The notes under the pieces are model-generated. The model saw nothing but the letters and a program-made list of their open reading frames with translations. It had not been told where the DNA came from and searched no databases. DNA of 44,822 bases from a virus. Shown here one piece after another: positions 2,611 to 34,738 of this stretch; the first letter of the stretch is position 1, and each line of letters opens with the position of its first letter. The stretch covers positions 1 to 44,822 of the IMG/VR virus record IMGVR_UViG_3300037261_000027; one strand, 5' to 3'. Both the position numbers and the translations under genes were made by a program.

Positions 2611-2961
2611 ATGGCAGCTTACAACGCAACATCCCCGGCGGCACTTGCCCCAGGTGAGTCGATCACGCTGAGCAATGCCTCGTTAGGCGCATCAGTCCTG
2701 ACACAGCAGGTGGGCATCGGGCCGGTCAACGGGTACAACGATGTGCTCACGCTTTTCAACTATTCCGCGGTCGCCCTGACTGTAAACGTCTCGCCCGACG
2801 ATGCCAATCAAGCCAGCTACCTGCCGCTCAAGTCCACTGACGGCCTAGTGGCGCTTACCTGCGCAGCCAACTCTGCGATCTCGTTTACCACTTCGGCCGC
2901 ATTTGTGGCTATCGGCGTGGCCAGTGATCCGGGCGCAACCAATATCATCCTGAGCCGATGA
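2611..2961 (+). CDS. Small beta-rich putative structural protein (116 aa)
   Basis: ATG at 2611 with GAGGTGA upstream. Rich in Ala, Ser, Thr, Val and Asn, with LAPGESITLSN, LTLFNYSAVALTVNVSP and a C-terminal SAAFVAIGVASDPGATN. This is an alternating beta pattern typical of capsid decoration or small virion proteins. The last four bases overlap the start of the large terminase gene (ATGA-type coupling). No named family recognised. Confidence 0.65.
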   Translation: MAAYNATSPAALAPGESITLSNASLGASVLTQQVGIGPVNGYNDVLTLFNYSAVALTVNVSPDDANQASYLPLKSTDGLVALTCAANSAISFTTSAAFVAIGVASDPGATNIILSR

Positions 2962-5486
2962 GGGAGCCCTTAAAGCTACGCTTGCAGCCAAAGCAAGCCG
3001 CGCTCATGGACGCCATGGAACTCCTCGGACTAGATATCCCTACCACTATCGGATGGGGTGGTAGCCGAGGAGCTGCCAAGTCTGGAGGTTTGAGGCGTGT
3101 CTGTCTGGCTCGTCGCATGGCTCACCCCGGTACAAAGGCTGTCATAATTCGCAGGGTTTACAAGGATGTCAAAGAGAACCATATCGATAAATACCTCGAA
3201 GAGTACCCGATTCTGCGCGAATACTACAGCATCAGCAATGAGACAATCACAATCCCAACATCGGGCGCCCCATCCCCGATCCTGTTTCGATACGCCGAGA
3301 ATCTGGAGTCAGTCAAGCGTCAGTTCATGGGACCAGAGTACTACGACATATTCCTTGATCAGGCCGAGCAGTTCTCAGAGCAGGAACTCAGGATCATCAA
3401 GACCACCAATCGCGCACCCAACCGCAAGCAGGGTGAGTGCAAGATGGCGCTTTTCTTCAATCCCGGCGGTATTGGTACCGAGTATCTGCGGCGCATCTTC
3501 TGGCAGAAGCGGTTCGAAGGGTCAGAGCGTTCGTGCGATTACCAGTTCATTCAGGCTTATGGGTGGGACAACTATGTATGGTTTGATGGACTTGGATACT
3601 CCGAAAAGGAATTCTATGCTCTTTCAAGCGATGAGAGGTTCGAGCTATTCATCACCAAAACGCAGTACGGCAGGGATCTGAATGCGCTTCCCAAGGCTCT
3701 GAGGGCAGGTCACTTACTCGGAAATTTCGAGTCGTTCGAGGGTCAGTATTACGCTGGCGTATGGGATGAGTCGCGTCAGATCCTCACAGATAGGCAGGTA
3801 GACGATCTATTACAGCCGTGGTGGACATGCTGGATAGCTATCGACTGGGGATTCGCTCACCACGCTTGCGCTCTCTGGTTTGCGTCTGGCAAGGTCAATC
3901 CGGCAAGGTTTAAGGCTGTTTTCGGGGTGGAAGTATCTCACGAGATTGAGGTGGTAGTCTGCTACCGGGAACTGGTGGTGAGCGAGACAGAGGAGCAGGA
4001 TCTGGCAGGGCAGATCGTTGACAACACTCCATCGTCAGAGCGCAAACTCATCAAGTCCATATTCCTCAGCCCTGACGCATGGCAAAAGCGGGGAAGCGCC
4101 AACGCCATCGCCGACACGATGAGTGATGTGTTCCGCAAAGGATCGCTTCCGATGGCGTACCCTGCCCAAGATGAGCGCATCGGAGGTTGGCGTCTTCTTT
4201 ACTCGCTATTCAGGTCTAGCCATGATGCCTATGAGAAGGATTATGAGCAACATAATGAACTGCTTACGCCGATGCTTTTTATCAGCCCATTGTGCTGCAA
4301 TGTGATGGAAGCGGTTCCTCTGGCGATGCGCGACGACAAGCACCCAGGGAGGCTCGAAGACGTTCTAAAGACCCCAACCAAGGCCGATGATGTGCTAGAT
4401 TGCTTTGCGGGGAACACTCAGGTTTATTGCGAGTATGGCCCGAAGCGCATAGATCAAGTGCAACCAGGGGATATGGTATGGACTCGCGCTGGATTGCGCC
4501 CCGTTGTGCAGCAATGGAAGGTACGAAAGAACGCTAGAATCGTGCGTGCCACGTTCTCAGACGGGACACAGATTCAATGCACTCCAGAGCACAGATTCCT
4601 CACACAGCGTGGATTCGTGCCTATCGATACTTTGCGATACGATGATATACTTATGTCATGGACAGCATTGAATTCAATGGCAGGAAGTATACAAGAAACA
4701 AAGCAGGATACTACCGCGCTAGCAGACGTTTCTATCACCGCGACCTGTGGGCAAGCATCCACGGACCAATACCACCAAAGCATCACATCCACCATCGAGA
4801 TGAAGACCGAGAAAACAACTCAATCGAGAATCTGGAGTGCCTCCCCGGAGCAAAGCATCTCAGCGACCACCACAAAGGGAAATGCACAGACGCGATGCGA
4901 GCAAATCTTGATCGAATCCGAACCTTGGCATCTATCTGGCACGGAACCGATGCAGGAAGGGCGTGGCATAGTTCCAACGCAAAGGGCCGGACTCTTCCGC
5001 GAACTGATCGGATATGCGAAGTATGCAGTACGAGTTATTCAGGGATTTATCGGCAAAGATTCTGCTCCAATGCCTGCAAATCTCGCTTCCGCCGCGCCTC
5101 ACTTTTGGACGACGTCCTTCGCAAATGCGCTGTCTGCGGTTCTTTCTTCCGCATCGATAGATATTCAAGGCAAAGGACTTGCGGTCGGTTATGCGGTTCG
5201 GCTTCTGCGGCTGGAAAATTGCGGATTCGAGGACGTTTACGACCTTGAAATTGAAGGCAAGCACGAATTCTTTGCGAATGGGATTCTAGCTCACAATTGT
5301 CTCCGGTATGGTGTAGCGAGTATGCTTTCTCCGAAGGTTTCCGCTCCTATTTCCGTGCAAGCAAAGGAGCTTTGGGATAGACTTCCAGCAGAGAATCCCG
5401 AGCAGGTTCAAGGCAGGGCGATGGCAATGCTCAAGTTCGAACACGATGCGCGGAAGACCAAAAGGAGGGCAACATGGGCACATTGA
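2958..5486 (+). CDS. terL: Terminase large subunit interrupted by an intein
   Basis: 842-residue precursor. The ATPase has a Walker A-like GGSRGAAKS (residues 34-42) and Walker B YDIFLDQAEQ (129-138). The nuclease has IAIDWG (293-298) and the final acidic motif KADDVLD (475-481). An intein (residues 482-780) follows directly, and the frame resumes with CLRYGVASM (781 onward). Removing it leaves a 543-residue enzyme, normal for a headful or cohesive-end packaging motor that cuts concatemers and pumps DNA into the prohead using ATP. The intein splits the metal-binding nuclease motif, so the nuclease should be inactive until splicing. Start ATG overlaps the previous gene by four bases; the end overlaps the next gene by 13. 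Confidence 0.93.
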   Translation: MREPLKLRLQPKQAALMDAMELLGLDIPTTIGWGGSRGAAKSGGLRRVCLARRMAHPGTKAVIIRRVYKDVKENHIDKYLEEYPILREYYSISNETITIPTSGAPSPILFRYAENLESVKRQFMGPEYYDIFLDQAEQFSEQELRIIKTTNRAPNRKQGECKMALFFNPGGIGTEYLRRIFWQKRFEGSERSCDYQFIQAYGWDNYVWFDGLGYSEKEFYALSSDERFELFITKTQYGRDLNALPKALRAGHLLGNFESFEGQYYAGVWDESRQILTDRQVDDLLQPWWTCWIAIDWGFAHHACALWFASGKVNPARFKAVFGVEVSHEIEVVVCYRELVVSETEEQDLAGQIVDNTPSSERKLIKSIFLSPDAWQKRGSANAIADTMSDVFRKGSLPMAYPAQDERIGGWRLLYSLFRSSHDAYEKDYEQHNELLTPMLFISPLCCNVMEAVPLAMRDDKHPGRLEDVLKTPTKADDVLDCFAGNTQVYCEYGPKRIDQVQPGDMVWTRAGLRPVVQQWKVRKNARIVRATFSDGTQIQCTPEHRFLTQRGFVPIDTLRYDDILMSWTALNSMAGSIQETKQDTTALADVSITATCGQASTDQYHQSITSTIEMKTEKTTQSRIWSASPEQSISATTTKGNAQTRCEQILIESEPWHLSGTEPMQEGRGIVPTQRAGLFRELIGYAKYAVRVIQGFIGKDSAPMPANLASAAPHFWTTSFANALSAVLSSASIDIQGKGLAVGYAVRLLRLENCGFEDVYDLEIEGKHEFFANGILAHNCLRYGVASMLSPKVSAPISVQAKELWDRLPAENPEQVQGRAMAMLKFEHDARKTKRRATWAH
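4401..5297 (+). other. Intein within the large terminase (residues 482-780)
   Basis: 299 residues. Block A begins CFAGNTQVYCEYG with RIDQVQPGDMVWT; block B is TPEHRFLT (542-549); blocks F/G are EDVYDLEIEGKHEFFANG and ILAHN, with penultimate His779, final Asn780 and Cys781 as the first downstream residue. All residues needed for standard Cys1 splicing are present. About 88 N-terminal and 26 C-terminal residues look like splicing domain. The 180 or so residues between are Ser/Thr/Ala/Gln-rich and resemble no endonuclease in this frame. That stretch is instead the coding DNA of an HNH nuclease in another frame (4658-5248). Confidence 0.92.
4658..5248 (+). CDS. HNH homing endonuclease nested out of frame inside the intein
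   Basis: 196 residues, read two bases out of phase with the terminase frame. ATG at 4658 is the only possible start because a stop lies in this frame at 4643-4645. Residues 8-70 match the phage HNH homing nuclease pattern: RKYTRNKAGYYRASRR, then HHIHHRDEDRENNSIENL, then KHLSDHH, supplying the His-Asn-His active site. The C-terminal half has two zinc-type clusters: CEVC with CSNAC, and CAVC with CGRLC, as in many free-standing HNH enzymes. It stops 49 bases before the intein end, overlapping splicing block F. No good ribosome binding site is visible, so expression may depend on reinitiation, frameshifting or weak internal initiation. It presumably cuts intein-free terminase genes to spread the element. 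Confidence 0.85.
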   Translation: MDSIEFNGRKYTRNKAGYYRASRRFYHRDLWASIHGPIPPKHHIHHRDEDRENNSIENLECLPGAKHLSDHHKGKCTDAMRANLDRIRTLASIWHGTDAGRAWHSSNAKGRTLPRTDRICEVCSTSYSGIYRQRFCSNACKSRFRRASLLDDVLRKCAVCGSFFRIDRYSRQRTCGRLCGSASAAGKLRIRGRLRP

Positions 5487-5818
5487 TTCTAAGTTTGGCG
5501 CTGGCGGTGGTATCGGCGGTTGCCGGTATTGCGGTGCTTGAAGTGTTCAGGCTGCGGATTTCAGTAAAAGACTGGGAACAGACTGTAAAGGGGATGGGTG
5601 AGGCCCATAAAAAGGATCTGATCGAAGCCCACAATGAGATTGAAGCAATGCGCACGAGGGCTATACTGGCAGAGAAGAGGCTTCGTCAGGAAGGGCCTAC
5701 ATCTGGTATCCCCAAGGCTCGAAGCGCATCCAGTATCCGGTCCATGAATGATAGGTACAATGAAGATGTGATTGAGAAGGAACAAGAGCGGCTGGCAAAT
5801 ACCAGTTCGCGGGTTTGA
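5474..5818 (+). CDS. Small membrane-anchored coiled-coil protein (114 aa)
   Basis: ATG at 5474 with a strong AAAAGGAGG, inside the last 13 bases of the terminase gene. Residues 2-25 form one hydrophobic segment (LILSLALAVVSAVAGIAVL). The rest is charged and helical (AHNEIEAMRTRAILAEKRL), with a polar tail. Possibly a lysis accessory or a membrane-associated assembly factor; nothing in the sequence decides. No family recognised. Confidence 0.7.
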   Translation: MGTLILSLALAVVSAVAGIAVLEVFRLRISVKDWEQTVKGMGEAHKKDLIEAHNEIEAMRTRAILAEKRLRQEGPTSGIPKARSASSIRSMNDRYNEDVIEKEQERLANTSSRV

Positions 5819-23243: not shown

Positions 23244-25115
23244 ATGCCTACCCGATATGTTCAATTGCCGAATGGATCGTACATGGAGTGGCCAGAGGGA
23301 GTTTCTGCGGCTGATTTCAAGGCGAAGGCTGCGAAGGTTGCAGGACAAGATCAGGCCACGCATCCTCCATCATATTCTGGAAATGTTCCCATTCAGAGCA
23401 GCGGTGGACGCACTGCTATTGGGGAAGTAGCTCCAGATGACCGGCGCAATTCGCTTCAGAGAAATCTTGACAATCTATCTACTCCAGATGCTCGCAAAGA
23501 GGAATGGCAGGGGCCGGTGCGAACTGGTATTGATAGATTCTCTCAGGGGGTAGCCAGTAGCGTGTTGCCGATGATATCCCATCCAATACAATCTGGAATC
23601 GGGATCATAAAATCTTTAGGCAATGCTATGTCTAATAGCGGCGGAACGGCTGAAGGTTTTGCTCGGGAGTTTGCTCGTCCGATAGTAGAGGGAGCAGTCC
23701 AAAATTACGTTGAAAATGGTCCAGCAAAGGCTATCCCGAATTTAGTTGGACAAGGCGTTGGTGGATGGGCCGCCGGAGAACTTGGCGGGGCTGGAACTAA
23801 GGCCATAGTGAAGCCGATTGCTGCTAGGGTAGGACCAGCGATGCAGACATTGGCAGAAGAAAATCTTAATCGTCGTATGGCTCCAAGTACCAACGATACA
23901 AGCTATGGGCAGAATCCCGGACGAGGAGTTCTTGCGTCTGGAATCGGCCCATCTACTCGCCAAGGTCTATTAAGGAAAATTGGAGAGGCAAAAGAGTCCA
24001 CTGGAGAAATGATAGGCAATGCTGTTCGCGGTGCGGATAGCAATGCGAATGCTCCGCTATTGTCCAGTAAGAAACTGGCGTCATCGATTGATGGACCAAT
24101 CAGCGGTCGTATCGCAGAAGTGACAGGACCAGGGAGAGCTACCGCAAGCCCAGAAGTTCCATACCAGATATTCAGAGAGGGAATGCAGGACGCTGCGCCT
24201 GGCGCAACGGCTCCGATATATGGCCCAAATGCCCCTGAAAACGTACTGCCTTCCGATCTTTGGAAGACTACACGCAATATTGACAAAAACACTCGATTTA
24301 ATCCAGATCCAGAGATTGAATCAGCTAATGAAATAAAGCGAAATGTTCGTGGAGGACTCCGCCGTCAACTTGAGACTGTGGACCCAAATATCAAGCCACT
24401 TAGCCAGAACTACGGAGACCTGTCATCTTCAGAAACAGCAATCGAGAGAGAGAACTCTCCAATGTTTCGCGCTAGCGGTATTAGGGGAATACTGCACGAT
24501 ACGCTAGATTCCTATCCAGTTAATACGGCAGTTTCATCTGGTATATACAAGGCTGGAGGAATGCTCAAGAGGATTGGTGGAATACCGGAATCCCCGATGG
24601 GTCCAAACTGGACTCCGAGAGTCGAGGCTGTACCGCATAAACTCGAGGCCAATGTACCCGGCAATGCAGACTTTGGCGATGATTTCACCCAAGGTAGATT
24701 CACTCCTCGTCCAGTACGAACGGGACAAGCTCCTCCGTCTCGACTCGCTTTGCCTGATGAGACAAATGCAGGAGAAGCGCAGCCAATGGTAGGCGTATTG
24801 AAGCATCCGGGGCAGCAAAGATCGTTTACTCCTCCATCGGATGTAATCACCGCTCCCGGTCAGTACTTGCGCCCAGAACCTACGCCATCGCAGCCGCGCA
24901 TATTCTCTCCCGAGGGGATTCGCACCGCTCCTCGCGCATTGCTTCCGGGTGGATTCGATACGCCTCCGACTCCAGAGCCAACCACTGCGCACATTTATCC
25001 TGCTGGTAGCCAATTCCGCGCTCAACCCATAGAGACTCCGGTATATCCTCCAGCTAGTCAGTTCCGAGGAAAAGCACAACCATTCAACATTGATGAATAT
25101 CTGAAAGGTCAATAA
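23244..25115 (+). CDS. Putative internal virion protein with PDZ-free N-domain (623 aa)
   Basis: Begins MPTRYVQLPNGSYMEWPEG followed by VSAADFKAKAAKVAG, a short domain with the P-xG-xxxxxPxG pattern common at the start of phage internal proteins. A Gly/Ala-rich hydrophobic stretch lies at about 155-195 (GQGVGGWAAGELGGAG), possibly membrane-active. The last 180 residues are Pro/Arg-rich with repeated PAGSQFRAQP and PPASQFRGKAQP. Probably part of the DNA ejection apparatus; no enzyme motif seen. Stop overlaps the next start. Confidence 0.5.
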   Translation: MPTRYVQLPNGSYMEWPEGVSAADFKAKAAKVAGQDQATHPPSYSGNVPIQSSGGRTAIGEVAPDDRRNSLQRNLDNLSTPDARKEEWQGPVRTGIDRFSQGVASSVLPMISHPIQSGIGIIKSLGNAMSNSGGTAEGFAREFARPIVEGAVQNYVENGPAKAIPNLVGQGVGGWAAGELGGAGTKAIVKPIAARVGPAMQTLAEENLNRRMAPSTNDTSYGQNPGRGVLASGIGPSTRQGLLRKIGEAKESTGEMIGNAVRGADSNANAPLLSSKKLASSIDGPISGRIAEVTGPGRATASPEVPYQIFREGMQDAAPGATAPIYGPNAPENVLPSDLWKTTRNIDKNTRFNPDPEIESANEIKRNVRGGLRRQLETVDPNIKPLSQNYGDLSSSETAIERENSPMFRASGIRGILHDTLDSYPVNTAVSSGIYKAGGMLKRIGGIPESPMGPNWTPRVEAVPHKLEANVPGNADFGDDFTQGRFTPRPVRTGQAPPSRLALPDETNAGEAQPMVGVLKHPGQQRSFTPPSDVITAPGQYLRPEPTPSQPRIFSPEGIRTAPRALLPGGFDTPPTPEPTTAHIYPAGSQFRAQPIETPVYPPASQFRGKAQPFNIDEYLKGQ

Positions 25116-27478
25116 TGAAGCGCATCGCAATTCTGACACTCCTGATTCTTTCCGCTATCACCGTATTCGGCCAGGCCGTGCGTGTAGATATCCCGATCCA
25201 GACCACCGGGCCTAATGTCCCGAGCGGAATCGGCCCACTTCCTCAAGCTCTCTGGATTGCGAATGCTGGCGTGAATATCTGCACCCATCCGAGCGCATCT
25301 CTTGCCGCGTGCATCGCTTCCCCTGTGACGACATACACGGACTCCACCAAAGGTACTACATGCCCGCCTGCTACACCTTTGGTACAGCTTCCGGGGAACA
25401 CTTGCACGGCATCAACTGGAGTCGCGTCAACGATTGGATTCTGGTACGGAGGCGGGACGTTTGATTATTGGATCACGGCATCGTATGGGTCATTTGGACC
25501 ATTTACGGTGACATCTCCGAACTTCTGCAATCCTGGCGGTTGCACGATTACAGGTCCTATTTTTGGTACAGATGCCACTTTCTCAGGCACCGTCGTGGCC
25601 AACACTGCGAACGTTTCATCGCTTCTGTCCCCAACCTCAAAAGGCACTTCTATCGGAAACCAAATCTACGGGAGCACATACAACGGGCTCGCGGCGTTCG
25701 AGCCCGTTGTCATTGATGGCAATTACAACGCTTTTCCGGGAATATCTTACACAACACTAGCCAATGGAAATATGATCGTTGTCTACCGAAAAGGGACAAC
25801 ACACGCTTCGGATGCCGGAACGATAGTAAAACAGATTTCAACTGATAACGGACATACGTGGGGGGTACAATCGCTAGTTTATTCGGCTGGATCGCTTGAC
25901 GCTAGAGACCCTGGCCTAAAACTGCTCTCGGATGGCTCGTTGATTATGTCTTTTTTTGTAAGCACGGTCGGTGGATTTCCCACTGGAACATTTGTGCTTA
26001 AATCATTCGATGGTGGAACTACATGGGGTTCACCAATCAATGTGGGAGGAAGTTCAGCATGGGAAGCGTGCTCCAGCCCTGTGATCCAACTTGCGAATGG
26101 ATCCCTTCTCCTCGCTCTGTATTCGCTGTCTCCATCAAACACGGACTCGACGGCCACGATTCAAATCGTATCCTCTACTGATGCGGGGGTGTCGTGGTCG
26201 AATGGCGCAGTAGTTTCGACTATCAATGGTGTGACAGAGCCTAATCTGATTCTCACTCAGACCGGAAGTATTCTCGCCATGATTCGCAACGAGCTTACCG
26301 ACTTTGCAATGGTAGCAAAATCTACAGATTCGGGGGCAACTTGGGGAACAGCCGTCAATGTATTCCCTGCCAATTCTAAGATCAGCATCGGTCAATTCGG
26401 TGATGGAACTTTCCTGGCGATGTATAAATCTTGGGACACCGTAACAACGGGTGGAGTATTGCACGGTCAAGGGGCGGTGAGAATTTCGCTAGATCCCAAT
26501 GCGTTATCTTGGAGCAGCCCGGAGTTGCTTCTCACGACCGATAATGACACGCTTGTCAGTTATGTGTACGGCAATTTCGTTCAGATCACCCCCCAGATGT
26601 TCGGTGCTGTTTACTGTATGCAGTTCACGGCAGCAACGTCTGGATGCTATTTCCGGTATTTAGACAAGGCGTACCTCTCAGCGCCACAGATGACCGCAAA
26701 TGTCAATGGGTTTGTCTCGCGCAGTTTTGGGTATGTTGATGGCAACTTGTGGCTTACTGGAAATCCGGGTTCTAGGCGGTACATAGGTTTAGATGCAGAC
26801 TCCACGCTTAACAGCGCACTGGCTATTCAGGCAGGGTTTGGGTCTTCTGGTTCGGGCGGAGCAATCATTCTGTACGGCCATTCCGCATCGAGTCACGCAG
26901 GATCAATTCAACTTGGCATCAGCAACGGATCAGGTGGGAATGTTTGCATCAACAGCAATGCTGACGGAAGTGGAACTGACGTGTTTTGCTTCAACGCCGC
27001 TGGACACGTACATTCGACTGGAACTAACGCTCTGGCAGATTATGGCATCACCGACGGAATGAACTTGCTGGCTGATAATTTCATCAATCCTGCCACCCGT
27101 CGCTGGCTAGGTTTGAATCAAGGTGCTGCCGGAACGGGAATTCTCAATTTCCAGGCTGGAGATGGATCTGCATTTCATGGCGGTGGCCTTATCTTGTATG
27201 GGCACTCCGAATCACCGTTCGGAGGGTGGGTAAAGGCTGGAATTGATACCGGCGTGGCCGGAGCTAAATTCTGCGTCAACGGACAAGCAGACGGCGCCGG
27301 AACGGATGTAGCGTGTACCGATGGAATCGGCAACACGGTAACAAACGGATCAATGACGGTGGGAGGAGAATCGGCGCAAACTACCTTCCTCGCGTGCTAT
27401 ACCAATGGTGGAAAACTGGGCCACTGCGGATCAGTCCCAAGCGGTACACCGCCGACATGCGGATGTGTCAGTCCGTAA
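25115..27478 (+). CDS. Sialidase-like (BNR repeat) tailspike with signal peptide
   Basis: 787 residues, overlapping the previous stop. N-terminal KRIAILTLLILSAITVFGQA is a clear Sec signal peptide, unusual for a virion protein. Residues 30-140 form a small beta domain with conserved Cys. Residues about 195-520 carry at least four Asp-box (BNR) repeats: STDNGHTWG, SFDGGTTWGS, STDAGVSWS, STDSGATWG, plus an early VVYRKGTTHA. This marks a six-bladed sialidase propeller. The C-terminal third is Gly/Ser-rich with repeated LYGHS units. Likely digests or binds host glycans, as a spike or a secreted enzyme. Confidence 0.72.
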   Translation: MKRIAILTLLILSAITVFGQAVRVDIPIQTTGPNVPSGIGPLPQALWIANAGVNICTHPSASLAACIASPVTTYTDSTKGTTCPPATPLVQLPGNTCTASTGVASTIGFWYGGGTFDYWITASYGSFGPFTVTSPNFCNPGGCTITGPIFGTDATFSGTVVANTANVSSLLSPTSKGTSIGNQIYGSTYNGLAAFEPVVIDGNYNAFPGISYTTLANGNMIVVYRKGTTHASDAGTIVKQISTDNGHTWGVQSLVYSAGSLDARDPGLKLLSDGSLIMSFFVSTVGGFPTGTFVLKSFDGGTTWGSPINVGGSSAWEACSSPVIQLANGSLLLALYSLSPSNTDSTATIQIVSSTDAGVSWSNGAVVSTINGVTEPNLILTQTGSILAMIRNELTDFAMVAKSTDSGATWGTAVNVFPANSKISIGQFGDGTFLAMYKSWDTVTTGGVLHGQGAVRISLDPNALSWSSPELLLTTDNDTLVSYVYGNFVQITPQMFGAVYCMQFTAATSGCYFRYLDKAYLSAPQMTANVNGFVSRSFGYVDGNLWLTGNPGSRRYIGLDADSTLNSALAIQAGFGSSGSGGAIILYGHSASSHAGSIQLGISNGSGGNVCINSNADGSGTDVFCFNAAGHVHSTGTNALADYGITDGMNLLADNFINPATRRWLGLNQGAAGTGILNFQAGDGSAFHGGGLILYGHSESPFGGWVKAGIDTGVAGAKFCVNGQADGAGTDVACTDGIGNTVTNGSMTVGGESAQTTFLACYTNGGKLGHCGSVPSGTPPTCGCVSP

Positions 27479-30300: not shown

Positions 30301-30798
30301 TTACCTATTAACACATTCCATCAACTCATCAAATCCATATTCAGAGATGATACGTTGAACCGTTTCTGCGAGTGCTATTCGTTTGCAGTCATCAGGGAAC
30401 AGTGAATATCTTAGTTCCTTGATTTCGATATCCGTCTTTCGTTCCGCAGATGACCAGTAGTTGCGCTTTCCGATATCCACATTCTGGAGCATGATGAAGA
30501 TACCATGACGGCGCTCAAGAGTTTCAAGTCGTTCCTCATCTTCTCTTCGTTTCCTCCATTCTGGATTTGATCGGAACTCGTTTAGTGCAAGATCGCGGAT
30601 TGATAGGCCAAGTGCTGCGAGTATTTCATCCCTGGAACATCCAGTGAAGCATTTTAGGCGTACCCAATCTTTTGAATCCCAAACGCTAAGGCTTCGATTG
30701 CGATCAGCGTGAGCATGTAGAGAAGTGGGGCATCGGCACTGGAATCTCTTACCGGCCTTTACCCCATGGAGTTGTTTCGCTAACTGAGATGCGGTCAT
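30301..30798 (-). CDS. Primase-type zinc finger protein (165 aa)
   Basis: ATG at 30798, ATGA overlap with the gene upstream. Residues 18-65 have CRCPTSLHAHADRNRSLSVW followed by LKCFTGCSRDEILAALGL, the CHC2-like zinc ribbon found at the N-terminus of phage and plasmid primases. The rest is helical and charged with no TOPRIM or polymerase motif. It may be a stand-alone zinc-binding DNA adapter for primer synthesis or a remnant of a larger primase. Follows the helicase/methyltransferase gene, so likely part of replication. Confidence 0.7.
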   Translation of the reverse strand: MTASQLAKQLHGVKAGKRFQCRCPTSLHAHADRNRSLSVWDSKDWVRLKCFTGCSRDEILAALGLSIRDLALNEFRSNPEWRKRREDEERLETLERRHGIFIMLQNVDIGKRNYWSSAERKTDIEIKELRYSLFPDDCKRIALAETVQRIISEYGFDELMECVNR

Positions 30799-33107
30799 AC
30801 TTCGTCGTCGTCCTCAATAACTTCGGATGCTTCATCGACTCCAGCAAACAGTCCAACGTTGATCGACAGAGCCCGATCCAAGTTACGGCACGCCTGACCA
30901 TAGTAAGACCTCTTCAAGTCGCTTCCGATGAACTTCCGTCCCATCTCAAGAGCCACAAAGCCCTCTGAACCAATTCCGGCGAATGGTGACCAAACCATAT
31001 CCCCCGGATTCGTCCACAACTTGATAGCGCGGCGAATCACTTCCAACTGAAGAGGGCAAATGTGGCGCTCATCGTTATGCTCTCGCGCAGAACGGTACTG
31101 AAGCGTATCCGAGGGGTTGATATCCATCCATACAGGGGATGCGTATTGCTGCCATAACTGGACGGGGAACTTCTCCGCAGTGTGCGCCGTTGGCTCTGGG
31201 TTTAGTCCAGGCTTGCGCATAGTCACCAGATAGTCTGGAACTCCCTGACGGCTCATGCAAGAGTCCTTGCGGATAGTCTTGTGAAGCAGACCGAGGGCCT
31301 TGGTGCGCTGCATTGCCGTCACCGGGTCTTTCCAAATGCAGACTTCTGAATGGTAGATGAATCCAACTTCCTCAAATGCGCGGATGATCTCTCCTCGGAA
31401 ATCGCGGATGCCGATGTGACCATCCCGCACTTTGGAAGTCGGCAGGTTCATGCAGTGGATGGAAACCAGTCTTCCCGGCATCAAAGCGCGGAACTGTTCT
31501 TTGATGAGGAAACGATAGTGCCGCCAGAACTCATCGTGATCCTTGCTGTTTCCCATGTCGCGCTCGGAGTTGCTGTAGGTGTAGAGCGATGCGAATGGTG
31601 GCGAGTACACGGAATAGTGTATCGAATCATCTGGAAGCTCTCGCGCCAGTTCTACGCAGTCGGCAAGGTGCATCGTCCAGTTCTCCGAAGTCTTCACTTC
31701 GCGCTCATAGTGCGATTCTTCCCGGACGGTTCCTTTCAGGTTCATGCGGGTCAAGTCCTGCATGTTTGCTACCATCTCATCTGCCATTTGCCCCGCATCC
31801 CTTTCCTTCCGCTTTAGGTTTTCGAGCACGTTTCCTTCTGTAGATGCTGCGATGATGTGAACATGTACCGGGCGGGTCTGTCCAAACCGCCAGCAACGTC
31901 TGATTGCCTGAAAGAACTGCTCCCATGAATCGTTTACCCCAGCGAATATCATGTGGGAGCAAGTTTGGTAATTGACTCCGAACCCCAAAATGGAAGCCTT
32001 GGAAACCATTCTCTTGATCTTGCCTTCTGCAAACTCCAAAGACCGTGCAGCTTTCACTTCCGGCGTATCCGATCCTGTCAACTCTACTCCGTCAATCATC
32101 CTCGCAGCCATCTCACTTTCCTTGTTGAGGTTCGTCCAGATCAGCCAAGTCTCTTCGGGTTCTGCGTCGACAATCTCTTTAACTTTGGCGATGCGATCAT
32201 CGACAGTTGACCTACGCGCTGCCAGTCTCTCGGATAGTGTCTCCGCTGGCATAGCGAATAGCATCCCCTCCGATGGAGTATCCACGTCTACAATGTTCTC
32301 GTGGTAGATCAATTCCGGCAAGATGAAAGGCCCATCGTCATATCCCACGTCAGAAGGTTTGCGAATGTTCACTGCCCAAGAGCACACCCACTTCCAGAAC
32401 TCCGTCCGTGCATGTCCCTTGAGTCTCCACTTCTGCGTCTCTCCTCCATCATGAGTGAAGAACATGGAAAGCATCTCTGTCGCCGTCATGACGCCCAAGA
32501 ACTCCGCATGGTTGCCAAGCTCCATCACGTCATTTGGGGATGGTGTAGCGGTCGCAGCGAGTCGGTACGGGGTATCCTTGAATGCTTCTATAAGTGCGGA
32601 TCTGGTTTTTCCGTCAAACGATTTAAGGATGCTCGATTCGTCCAGGACGACTCCCGCGAAGTCTTCAGGGTTGAAGTGTTCCATGCGCTCATAGTTCGTG
32701 ACTACGATGGAAACACCTTCCATTTCTGATGCGTCCTTGCAGTACTTCGCAGTAATTCCGAACTTCGCACCCTCGGTGATCATCTGGTAAGCCACTGCAA
32801 GCGGCGCAAGCAAAAGAACAGGCATACCAGTATGTCTGGCTACGATCCGCGCCCACTCCAATTCAATCAGGCTCTTTCCCATCCCTGTTCCAAGAAAAGC
32901 GGCAGAACGTCCCAGCCGAAGAGCCCACGAGCAAACGTCCTTCTGGTGAGGGAACATGGCAGGGTTTAGTGGTGGAACTTCTTTCAGGCCCGATACGATT
33001 GGAGTGAATCGCTTCTGCTCCAAAAACCTCTCATACGAGAAGCACATCGGGTCAATCTGCTCCGCACCCATCACAGAATGCGGCGGTAGTATGATTTCTT
33101 GTTGCAT
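30795..33107 (-). CDS. SNF2-like helicase fused to a DNA methyltransferase
   Basis: 770 residues from ATG 33107, overlapping the previous stop (TGATG); a TTG one codon earlier is possible. N-terminal SF2 helicase: FLGTGMGKSLIE (Walker A), GVVLDESSILK (motif II), AATATPSPND (III), and RRCWRFGQTRPVHVH (VI), a SNF2/Rad54-like set. From about residue 475 a beta-class methyltransferase follows: YSPPFASLYTY (SPP(F/Y) catalytic motif) and VWSPFAGIGSEGFVALEMGR (SAM-binding). The order, catalytic before SAM motif, fits N6-adenine or N4-cytosine enzymes. It may modify phage DNA coupled to translocation, or act against host restriction. Confidence 0.85.
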   Translation of the reverse strand: MQQEIILPPHSVMGAEQIDPMCFSYERFLEQKRFTPIVSGLKEVPPLNPAMFPHQKDVCSWALRLGRSAAFLGTGMGKSLIELEWARIVARHTGMPVLLLAPLAVAYQMITEGAKFGITAKYCKDASEMEGVSIVVTNYERMEHFNPEDFAGVVLDESSILKSFDGKTRSALIEAFKDTPYRLAATATPSPNDVMELGNHAEFLGVMTATEMLSMFFTHDGGETQKWRLKGHARTEFWKWVCSWAVNIRKPSDVGYDDGPFILPELIYHENIVDVDTPSEGMLFAMPAETLSERLAARRSTVDDRIAKVKEIVDAEPEETWLIWTNLNKESEMAARMIDGVELTGSDTPEVKAARSLEFAEGKIKRMVSKASILGFGVNYQTCSHMIFAGVNDSWEQFFQAIRRCWRFGQTRPVHVHIIAASTEGNVLENLKRKERDAGQMADEMVANMQDLTRMNLKGTVREESHYEREVKTSENWTMHLADCVELARELPDDSIHYSVYSPPFASLYTYSNSERDMGNSKDHDEFWRHYRFLIKEQFRALMPGRLVSIHCMNLPTSKVRDGHIGIRDFRGEIIRAFEEVGFIYHSEVCIWKDPVTAMQRTKALGLLHKTIRKDSCMSRQGVPDYLVTMRKPGLNPEPTAHTAEKFPVQLWQQYASPVWMDINPSDTLQYRSAREHNDERHICPLQLEVIRRAIKLWTNPGDMVWSPFAGIGSEGFVALEMGRKFIGSDLKRSYYGQACRNLDRALSINVGLFAGVDEASEVIEDDDEV

Positions 33108-34738
33108 CAATATTCACCCATGTATTCAGGTTCTGGTTCTGGTTTCTTCTCGTTCGCCTTACGGAACTCTACAGCCCTTCTATGCTCCTCGGCCATGACT
33201 TCCTTTGGTGGCTTATGCGCAATAGCCTTCAATCCATCCGGCCACTTATTGAACTTCTCGTGGAAGCGATGATTGGCCCATCCTTGCTTGAATCCCCTCG
33301 TTTCTCCAATCCAGAGCATCCATCCGTAGTACTTGCGTCTCTCATCAAGTTCTGTCTTCTCTTTCTTGGCCCTTTCCTTCTTGGCCTTCTTCTCTGCTTT
33401 CTCCTTCTTGATGAATTCGGAGAACTCAGCCGATACAGCCGTCACCCCAGATGGTGCAAGGTTTTCATTCCCGCAAGCAGGACATAGTTTAGTCCGAGGA
33501 GGTATCAGGTATCCGCAATTCTTGCACTTGCGATGAGTATCAGGCTTCTTGTCACCATCGAATGCTTTTTGCTCCTTATCGTTTGGATCGTGATCATCCA
33601 AGTAATCGTGATAAATGTCTTCCGCTGGAGGCATTGCAGTCCCGTCTTCCCGCGTCAGATTTCCTCCATGATCGATAATTAGTGCATCTACTTTTGGCTC
33701 TTGCCCTGCTACTCTTTTTGATGGGTTGTCAGTCCTGAGAGCGCGTCCAATGATCTGTACCCAATCAATCTCACTCTTGATGATTCGGCAAATACCGATA
33801 ACCCTTACATCCTCATCTATTCCGGTGGTCAAAACTCCATAGTTGACGAGAATCGTGTATTTGCCTTCTCTGTACATTCGGAGCATTTTGGAGCGTTGTT
33901 TCCTGTCCATGCTTCCGTCGATGTAACCGCAAGAGATTCCATGAAGTTCAAACTCATCACGCAACTGTCGAGCATGGGCAAGACTAACAGCGTAGTAAAA
34001 CCCTGGCCGGTTCTCCCCGTATTTCAACCAGGTTTTCACCACGTCTCCAATAATCTCCTTATCGCCCATAACATTTGCTTCGTCGCGCTCGGACAGTACG
34101 CGGTTTCCCTCTTCGTTGACGTGGGTTTTCTTTCCAGCAAGATCTGGATCGACAGAGCCAACCAAATAGCGCGGCTTGACCAGATACCCTTCTTCAATCA
34201 GTTGCGCTGTGCTTTTGGTCTGGATCAGCTTCTTCCACCGTCTCCCCATCCCTTTCTTGTAGGGAGTCGCACTCAATGCGATTACAACAGTTCTGGACCA
34301 CTCCTCAGAGTCGAGAAGCTTATTAAATTCCTCCTTTTCCAAATGGACCTCATCTAAGATGACAAGATGCGGAGGGTCCATCGGTCTGTTTACTGCAGTG
34401 TGGATGCTGGCTACTTGAAGCTTCGCATCAGGGTTTGTGCGTGGATGGTCCTGCTGAATGATTCCAATGTCAGTCAGGCCCTGGCCCTCAAACTCTTCAA
34501 CGGATGGCTCGATCAGAGCATTACGTGGAACCGTAAACATGCTCTTCTTGCCCCTCTGGTAGCTACTCTTGAAGATGTTCGCAGAAAGCAAGGTCTTACC
34601 CCATCCGACAGAGGCCATGCCAATAATGCGCTTATGGCCCTGTCGGACAGCTTCTCGGCAGTCGTTGTAGAACTTTACCTGATGATCTCTCATCGGCTTG
34701 GATTCTACTTCTTGAGTCGATTCAAACAATGGGTGCAA
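33107..34738 (-). CDS. SF2 helicase with C-terminal zinc ribbon (543 aa)
   Basis: TTG start at 34738-34736, GAGGAG upstream, three bases after the previous stop. Motifs: IGMASVGWGKTLLSA (I), HLVILDEVHLEK (II), VIALSATPYKKG (III), VLTTGIDE and VQIIGRALRTD (V/VI). A four-cysteine zinc ribbon (CKNCGYLIPPRTKLCPACG) lies near residue 410, then a long lysine-rich helix and a C-terminal domain. Similar to DEAD/DEAH-type replication or recombination helicases of phages. The neighbouring second helicase suggests a two-helicase replication unit. Confidence 0.85.
   Translation of the reverse strand: MHPLFESTQEVESKPMRDHQVKFYNDCREAVRQGHKRIIGMASVGWGKTLLSANIFKSSYQRGKKSMFTVPRNALIEPSVEEFEGQGLTDIGIIQQDHPRTNPDAKLQVASIHTAVNRPMDPPHLVILDEVHLEKEEFNKLLDSEEWSRTVVIALSATPYKKGMGRRWKKLIQTKSTAQLIEEGYLVKPRYLVGSVDPDLAGKKTHVNEEGNRVLSERDEANVMGDKEIIGDVVKTWLKYGENRPGFYYAVSLAHARQLRDEFELHGISCGYIDGSMDRKQRSKMLRMYREGKYTILVNYGVLTTGIDEDVRVIGICRIIKSEIDWVQIIGRALRTDNPSKRVAGQEPKVDALIIDHGGNLTREDGTAMPPAEDIYHDYLDDHDPNDKEQKAFDGDKKPDTHRKCKNCGYLIPPRTKLCPACGNENLAPSGVTAVSAEFSEFIKKEKAEKKAKKERAKKEKTELDERRKYYGWMLWIGETRGFKQGWANHRFHEKFNKWPDGLKAIAHKPPKEVMAEEHRRAVEFRKANEKKPEPEPEYMGEY

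Follow-up and report, generated by a model that had tools for sequence, protein, structure and literature searches.

An HNH nuclease gene nested out of frame within a viral terminase intein, and its relatives

The window analysed here, meaning the whole stretch of DNA, is a metagenomic virus record in IMG/VR, 44,822 bases long. Its terminase gene, terL, carries an in-frame intein, and the DNA between the two splicing halves of that intein also encodes, in the −1 frame (= +2) relative to terL and the intein, a nuclease of the HNH_3 family. The features of the locus are listed with strand and, in brackets, the evidence for each; the slash in a motif marks the point of insertion.

2958-5486, + strand: terL open reading frame with in-frame intein, 842 amino acid precursor (Pfam Terminase_3 3.5e-08, Intein_splicing 1.2e-12; phrog_2 terminase 1.1e-19)
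2958-4400, + strand: N-extein, TerL residues 1-481, with C-terminal end ...KADDVLD (reading of the open frame and insertion-site comparison)
4401-5297, + strand: TerL intein, 299 amino acids from Cys1 to His-Asn, interrupting the catalytic-Asp motif D/CLRY of the TerL nuclease domain (Pfam and TIGR profiles; AlphaFold and Foldseek)
4401-4670, + strand: N-terminal half of the Hint domain, including block B, TPEHRFLT, at 4581-4604 (AlphaFold predicted local distance difference test score, pLDDT, 92-98)
4643-4651, + strand: candidate extended −10 element TGA-TATACT within intein codons (..Y-D-D-I-L..), 6 nucleotides (nts) 5′ of the HNH ATG (TANNNT count and codon tests)
4658-5248, + strand: HNH_3 nuclease gene, 196 amino acids, −1 frame (Pfam, PHROG, AlphaFold)
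4671-5180, + strand: disordered filler of the intein frame, intein residues 91-260, overlapped by the HNH gene (AlphaFold pLDDT about 43-60; identity at by-product level)
4730-4855, + strand: HNH_3 domain core, residues 25-66 of the HNH protein (Pfam PF13392)
5015-5077, + strand: first cysteine cluster of the HNH protein, C120, C123, C136 and C140 (invariant or nearly so in the alignment of relatives)
5126-5194, + strand: second cysteine cluster, C157, C160, C175 and C179 (invariant in the alignment of relatives)
5193-5297, + strand: C-terminal half of the Hint domain, blocks F and G with the terminal HN (TIGR profiles, AlphaFold)
5298-5486, + strand: C-extein, CLRYGVAS..., including the stop codon (reading of the open frame)

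A sequence-only reading of this DNA had described a terminase frame open across the whole intein and intact splice blocks, and both descriptions hold: the frame from 2958 to 5486 is uninterrupted, Cys482 begins at 4401, block B is in place, His779-Asn780 runs to 5297 and Cys781 follows. The class 1 Hint signature is present (Cys1, block B TxxH, blocks F and G ending in His-Asn, a C+1 nucleophile and one open host frame), and beside Intein_splicing the profiles TIGR01443 (6.6e-07) and TIGR01445 (3.9e-06) fit the TerL frame. Both Hint halves are modelled with high confidence and together give a complete Hint fold, the best structural match of which is the gp41-1 intein (template modelling score 0.85 by target, Foldseek). 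The N- and C-terminal intein parts (IntN and IntC) lie in the single open reading frame rather than in separate ones, the split arrangement seen in 12 relatives, Lactobacillus phage CL2 and others. No endonuclease fused in frame, as in bifunctional inteins, was found in the window or in any of 149 loci with this HNH, and a Pfam search matched no nuclease family in the intein frame, in keeping with the earlier remark that the filler frame is unlike any nuclease. A group I or group II intron was considered and rejected: Rfam matches over 2900-5600 are at chance level only, and the frame is open across the insert.

The other frame had been said to encode a coherent HNH enzyme with two zinc clusters, and on this profiles, conserved residues and fold agree. 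It matches Pfam HNH_3 (7.5e-13) and phrog_15471 (1.1e-36), in 60 nested relatives the HNH residues and both four-cysteine clusters show little or no variation, and its AlphaFold model has a mean pLDDT of 93.3. The closest structure in the PDB, a weak match, is I-HmuI (E 0.07), and the protein is 41% identical to Orf3 of Pseudomonas PAE1. Its stop codon, TGA at 5246-5248, falls within the intein block F codons GAC CTT GAA. One nested relative (L146, 3480-4460) has a zinc cluster N-terminal to the HNH domain rather than behind it.

Relatives were gathered by tblastn of the HNH protein against phage records and then by scans of IMG/VR and of GTDB genomes. The 149 loci with a convincing HNH comprise 110 nested, 12 split, 24 without Hint and 3 partial ones. 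Clustering at 80% left 103 non-redundant nested loci (from IMG/VR, GTDB genomes and annotated phages), with 23 free-standing and 11 split loci as comparison sets. The nuclease is in the −1 frame in 102 of the 103, in the other frame (+1) in one alone (L133, a TerL intein at 3802-4602), and in the intein frame in none. Four annotated or deposited phages share the layout, each having an open terL intein with the HNH in its −1 frame: MT838676 (gut), Tetrasphaera TJE1, Acinetobacter Highwayman and Rhodobacteraceae LS06-2018-MD07. In the last three the locus is annotated as terminase only; standard annotation hides the nuclease. The insertion site in all nested loci is the TerL nuclease-domain motif around the catalytic Asp, the exteins are terminases, and the registers vary within about five residues (for instance DH/CIDALRY, HA/CDALRY, D/CLRY as in the window, and DA/CRY). 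IntN and IntC share one frame in 86 of the 86 loci where both halves score, and a C-terminal block ending in HN or SN before Cys is still recognisable in 16 of 18 loci with a weak IntC score. The nesting of a nuclease gene out of frame in a terminase intein, the core of the sequence-only reading, is thereby confirmed, about 100 relatives upholding it. Among them neither indels that restore one frame (0 in-frame HNH among the 149 loci) nor a broken HNH frame beside a conserved intein was seen, the HNH frame being kept open in nested relatives.

The same nuclease family occurs at this motif in other arrangements. Split TerL inteins with the HNH gene between the IntN and IntC reading frames were found at L113, L035, L048, L052, L066, L069, L087, L110, L131, L143 and L149, one of them in a Staphylococcus borealis genome contig. 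For phage CL2 (L219) the annotated terminase is the N half with IntN only, and an unannotated IntC plus TerL C-terminus follows the HNH at 2487-2771. Free-standing HNH genes of the family directly follow an intact terL. In Brochothrix phage BL3 (L006, 1900-2700) the TerL intein is split and the HNH is reduced to a remnant, its N-terminal part deleted; gp3 starts with the IntC part. In Exiguobacterium phage vB_EauM-23 (L220, about 2770-3680) an HNH insert without Hint and without an Rfam intron match seemingly breaks up terL at this motif too (KNNH ... CDATRY); an Rfam search of 18 Hint-less loci gave one unrelated match.

That both frames matter is seen from the stop codons. Over the HNH core, 102 of the 103 nested loci (−1 overlap) have no stop in the intein-equivalent frame, whereas zero-stop copies number 0 of 23 among free-standing and 0 of 11 among split genes, which average 6.7 and 6.1 stops respectively, as synonymous-codon shuffles of those genes predict. 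For the nested genes, within-gene synonymous shuffling predicts 1.75 stops (joint log10P about −118) and rewriting in the codon usage of their own TerL predicts 3.3 (joint log10P −156). L133 has 0 stops in its own overlap frame where 7.3 are expected, and 0 of 5000 shuffles reach zero. In the same shuffles the alternative frame of the nested genes would carry about 16 stops; the preference for −1 follows from this difference. Nested status is partly defined by the open frame, a circularity guarded against by the free and split classes, by the 86 of 86 agreement of IntN and IntC and by L133. Evidence against chance is weak from the window alone, where an open intein frame over the HNH has a probability of about 0.10-0.13, and overwhelming from the comparative set. 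The scans gave almost only identical or less than 75% identical loci, not the near copies needed for a classical comparison of nonsynonymous with synonymous change, and position-specific and shuffle tests were used because close relatives are so scarce.

Differences between nested HNH genes concentrate on HNH third positions. At 35-40% HNH identity, the filler-frame identity is 0.200 for nested pairs and 0.193 for free or split pairs, and by this pairwise comparison no functional constraint on filler residues was detected beyond the by-product level. Since the filler is at that level and is disordered in AlphaFold between well-folded Hint halves, the nuclease dictates it, as had been proposed from the sequence alone. 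The intein frame over the HNH is selected to stay stop-free, and the residues that it encodes there are passive by-products.

HNH starts lie a median of 9 nts beyond the N-terminal Hint block and the stops sit in block F, 30 of 79 of them at one position, which by our codon reading corresponds to Y-N/D-L codons read as TAA or TGA in the HNH frame. Shine-Dalgarno (SD) sequences of −5 kcal/mol or stronger are present at 45 of the 91 nested loci with a start, and 35% of nested loci beat 90% of random placements, the strength being scored with one generic anti-SD for all hosts. The loci with a weak SD have a different feature: TANNNT exactly 6 nts before the start in 21 of 46, as against 1 of 45 with a strong SD (p = 7e-7). 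Resampling of synonymous codons within the same gene shows that this −10 box is built by codon choice in weak-SD loci (p about 1e-9) and not in strong-SD ones (0.89), with other spacings null apart from one. The SD and codon tests pick the best of several starts; shifted-gap controls with the same choice were mostly null. In loci of 62-68% GC the box is created by the rare codons AGA and ATA. The earlier suggestion that nuclease expression is uncoupled from terminase translation is supported by the relatives.

In the window TATACT is at 4646-4651 and the ATG at 4658, so that the box is centred 9.5 bp upstream, within the spacing of leaderless −10 elements. In mycobacteria, mapped promoters whose transcription start is the start codon have a TANNNT −10 centred 7-12 bp upstream of it (Cortes et al. 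2013, PMC3898074), and in Deinococcus a −10 motif adjoining open reading frames drives leaderless expression (PMC12340547). A conserved −35 box 5′ of the embedded −10 is not evident in the nested loci, where coding confounds the comparison. The window HNH is probably made from a leaderless mRNA, with a predicted transcription start at 4658, via a −10 element embedded in intein codons. Free-standing HNH genes after terL in four loci (L017, L025, L078, L114) have good-looking sigma70 promoters just upstream, for example TTGACC-N17-TATAAT in L114.

The reading that we favour, at a probability of about 0.8, is that the TerL intein is mobile and that its homing nuclease comes from an overlapping, out-of-frame gene with expression of its own. 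The TerL frame would be translated into a precursor containing the intein, and the split-like Hint fold, N half plus C half, would splice itself out, rejoining TerL across its nuclease active-site motif. In the −1 frame, the DNA between the Hint halves encodes the HNH_3 nuclease with its two zinc clusters, which would be made as a free protein. Its expression would be separate: about half of the relatives have an internal SD start, and the window, like about 20 of its relatives, would probably use an embedded −10 promoter, with a leaderless mRNA beginning at the HNH start codon. Intein-free terL would then be cut by the nuclease near the same motif, and the whole block of intein and HNH would be copied in. 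Several points weigh against this reading. The window HNH start lacks an SD (dG +0.3), the window's own codon test gives p = 0.063, and across the weak-SD loci the test has a smaller second signal at spacing 9 (p = 2e-4). In three nested loci the intein frame is interrupted outside the HNH, upstream of it in L117 and downstream in L123 and L128; sequencing error or real splitting may be the cause. The scans turned up no terL allele that is near-identical but free of the intein, and homing is for this reason an inference.

It is possible, though doubtful, that the window HNH is translated without a promoter of its own, by leaderless-like or weak initiation within terL mRNA, the −10 match being a coincidence of L-R-Y-x-D-x-L coding. 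The −10 does overlap conserved intein residues, and the window's p value just given fits a coincidence. However, with the effect of the amino-acid sequence taken out, the synonymous-codon test still gives its strong result in weak-SD loci and a null in strong-SD ones, and in GC-rich loci it is the rare codons AGA and ATA that make the box.

That the HNH is a packaging partner of the terminase, as HK97-type HNH proteins reportedly are, with the overlap keeping the two genes linked, is unlikely. Its association with terL is constant, free copies come directly after terL, and HNH proteins have been discussed as packaging components (PMC10448857). A mobile element is a better fit to its patchy presence, to its three genomic homes around one TerL motif (free, between split halves, nested) and to its weak congruence with TerL: between the TerL, HNH and intein similarity matrices there is little agreement (rho 0.12-0.30), as is expected of mobile parts. 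The HNH tree mixes free, split and nested states without resolution, with at least 15 changes of the nested label, only 2 of them forced by starred branches. A clean single origin of nesting was rejected with this tree, and the other frame of L133 shows that nesting has arisen at least twice, in L133 independently. By analogy with the collaborative homing in PMC10448857, a mini-intein at the TerL motif may plausibly have been joined by a free nuclease that cut close to it.

The near-constant −1 frame might instead reflect programmed −1 frameshifting that makes a fusion of the N-terminal intein part with HNH. The use of −1 in 102 of 103 nested loci invites the idea, but it is very unlikely. The window HNH frame opens at 4646, with a stop 3 codons before the ATG region, leaving about 12 nts and no slippery run; the HNH start is enriched in internal SD or TANNNT-N6 signals; in L133 the nesting is in the other frame; and stop expectation already accounts for the −1 bias.

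A reading of the intein as a dead passenger, or of the HNH as the sole coding frame, with the open intein frame a by-product of HNH codon and amino-acid make-up, is scarcely credible. The overlap frame is naturally stop-poor for HNH (for the window the chance of its being open is about 0.1) and the filler sequence is unconstrained, yet free-standing and split copies average 6-7 stops in that frame, conservation covers the Hint blocks with Cys1, His-Asn and the C+1 nucleophile, in one frame on both sides, and an essential TerL would be destroyed. Compensating indels near 4650 and 5250 that disguise an ordinary in-frame HNH intein do occur in metagenomic records such as this, but that reading is refuted by the relatives, where the −1 layout recurs in the isolated, independently sequenced phages TJE1 and Highwayman and in 102 non-redundant loci, never in frame.

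With the overlapping-gene reading preferred, we lean, by a small measure, to a wider view: that two-frame inteins are widespread and have evolved repeatedly, with shared DNA, a nuclease-dictated disordered linker, a promoter in synonymous codons and nuclease timing independent of the terminase. If so, the free-standing, split and nested forms at one TerL motif would be interconvertible states of one homing system. The nested loci are in any case a large natural set of fully overlapping genes in which constraint is separable per frame, one protein being conserved and the other frame merely open. The embedded promoter, if confirmed, would add regulatory signals in synonymous sites as a third layer of the same DNA.

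Elsewhere in the window, a SNF2-type helicase fused to an N6/N4 DNA methylase (Pfam) is encoded at 30795-33110 (− strand), a BNR-repeat (sialidase-like) protein amid structural genes at 25115-27478 (+ strand), and a reading frame with a long Ala/Gly/Trp-rich repeat tail (AAAWAAGAAAG...) at 122-766 (− strand).

No description of an out-of-frame nuclease inside an intein was found in a full-text literature search, with most subscription papers beyond its reach, and absence there is not proof; there is a moderate chance that two-frame inteins deserve a class of their own. Hidden out-of-frame HNH genes are known from phage methylases, in the ShiLan domain and the Pacc40 gp60 insertion (Arsenault, Gosselin, Gogarten 2025, PMC11855218). 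Insertions of this kind lack a splicing domain and are believed to remain in the protein, and the authors of that study suggested leaderless initiation (PMC11855218). The likeness is close, with an HNH in an alternative frame of a stop-free in-frame insertion and no detectable ribosome site. Here, however, the HNH lies within a complete intein, TerL is the host protein, and dual-frame statistics come from about 100 loci.

Bifunctional inteins, those of mycobacteriophage TerL included, carry in-frame LAGLIDADG or HNH nucleases, and all seven TerL sites fall within the ATPase domain (Kelley et al. 2016, PMC5050341). They too are mobile phage terminase inteins with a nuclease between the Hint halves, but the present insertions interrupt the TerL nuclease motif, and in none of them does the nuclease share the intein frame. 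Group I introns with HNH open reading frames (I-HmuI type) likewise hold a homing nuclease gene with its own translation signals within a splicing element, whereas the window has no intron RNA family and splicing here would be by protein. The free-standing HNH_3 genes beside terL (Pseudomonas PAE1, phrog_15471) are of the same HNH family with the same TerL motif nearby; they differ in having no overlap with terL, no Hint and a great many stops in the intein-equivalent frame.

Under the name ‘fractured genes’, Dassa et al. reportedly described in 2009 split inteins that have a homing endonuclease gene standing separately between their two halves. They share with the present case a separate nuclease gene between IntN and IntC, and gp41-1, the best structural match of the window Hint, is a phage split intein. 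The window intein differs in being continuous, its frame kept open through the HNH, while true split TerL inteins with the same HNH occur among the relatives (L113, CL2). It has long been asked how inteins acquire and lose homing nucleases, and free, split and nested forms at one motif make the routes testable.

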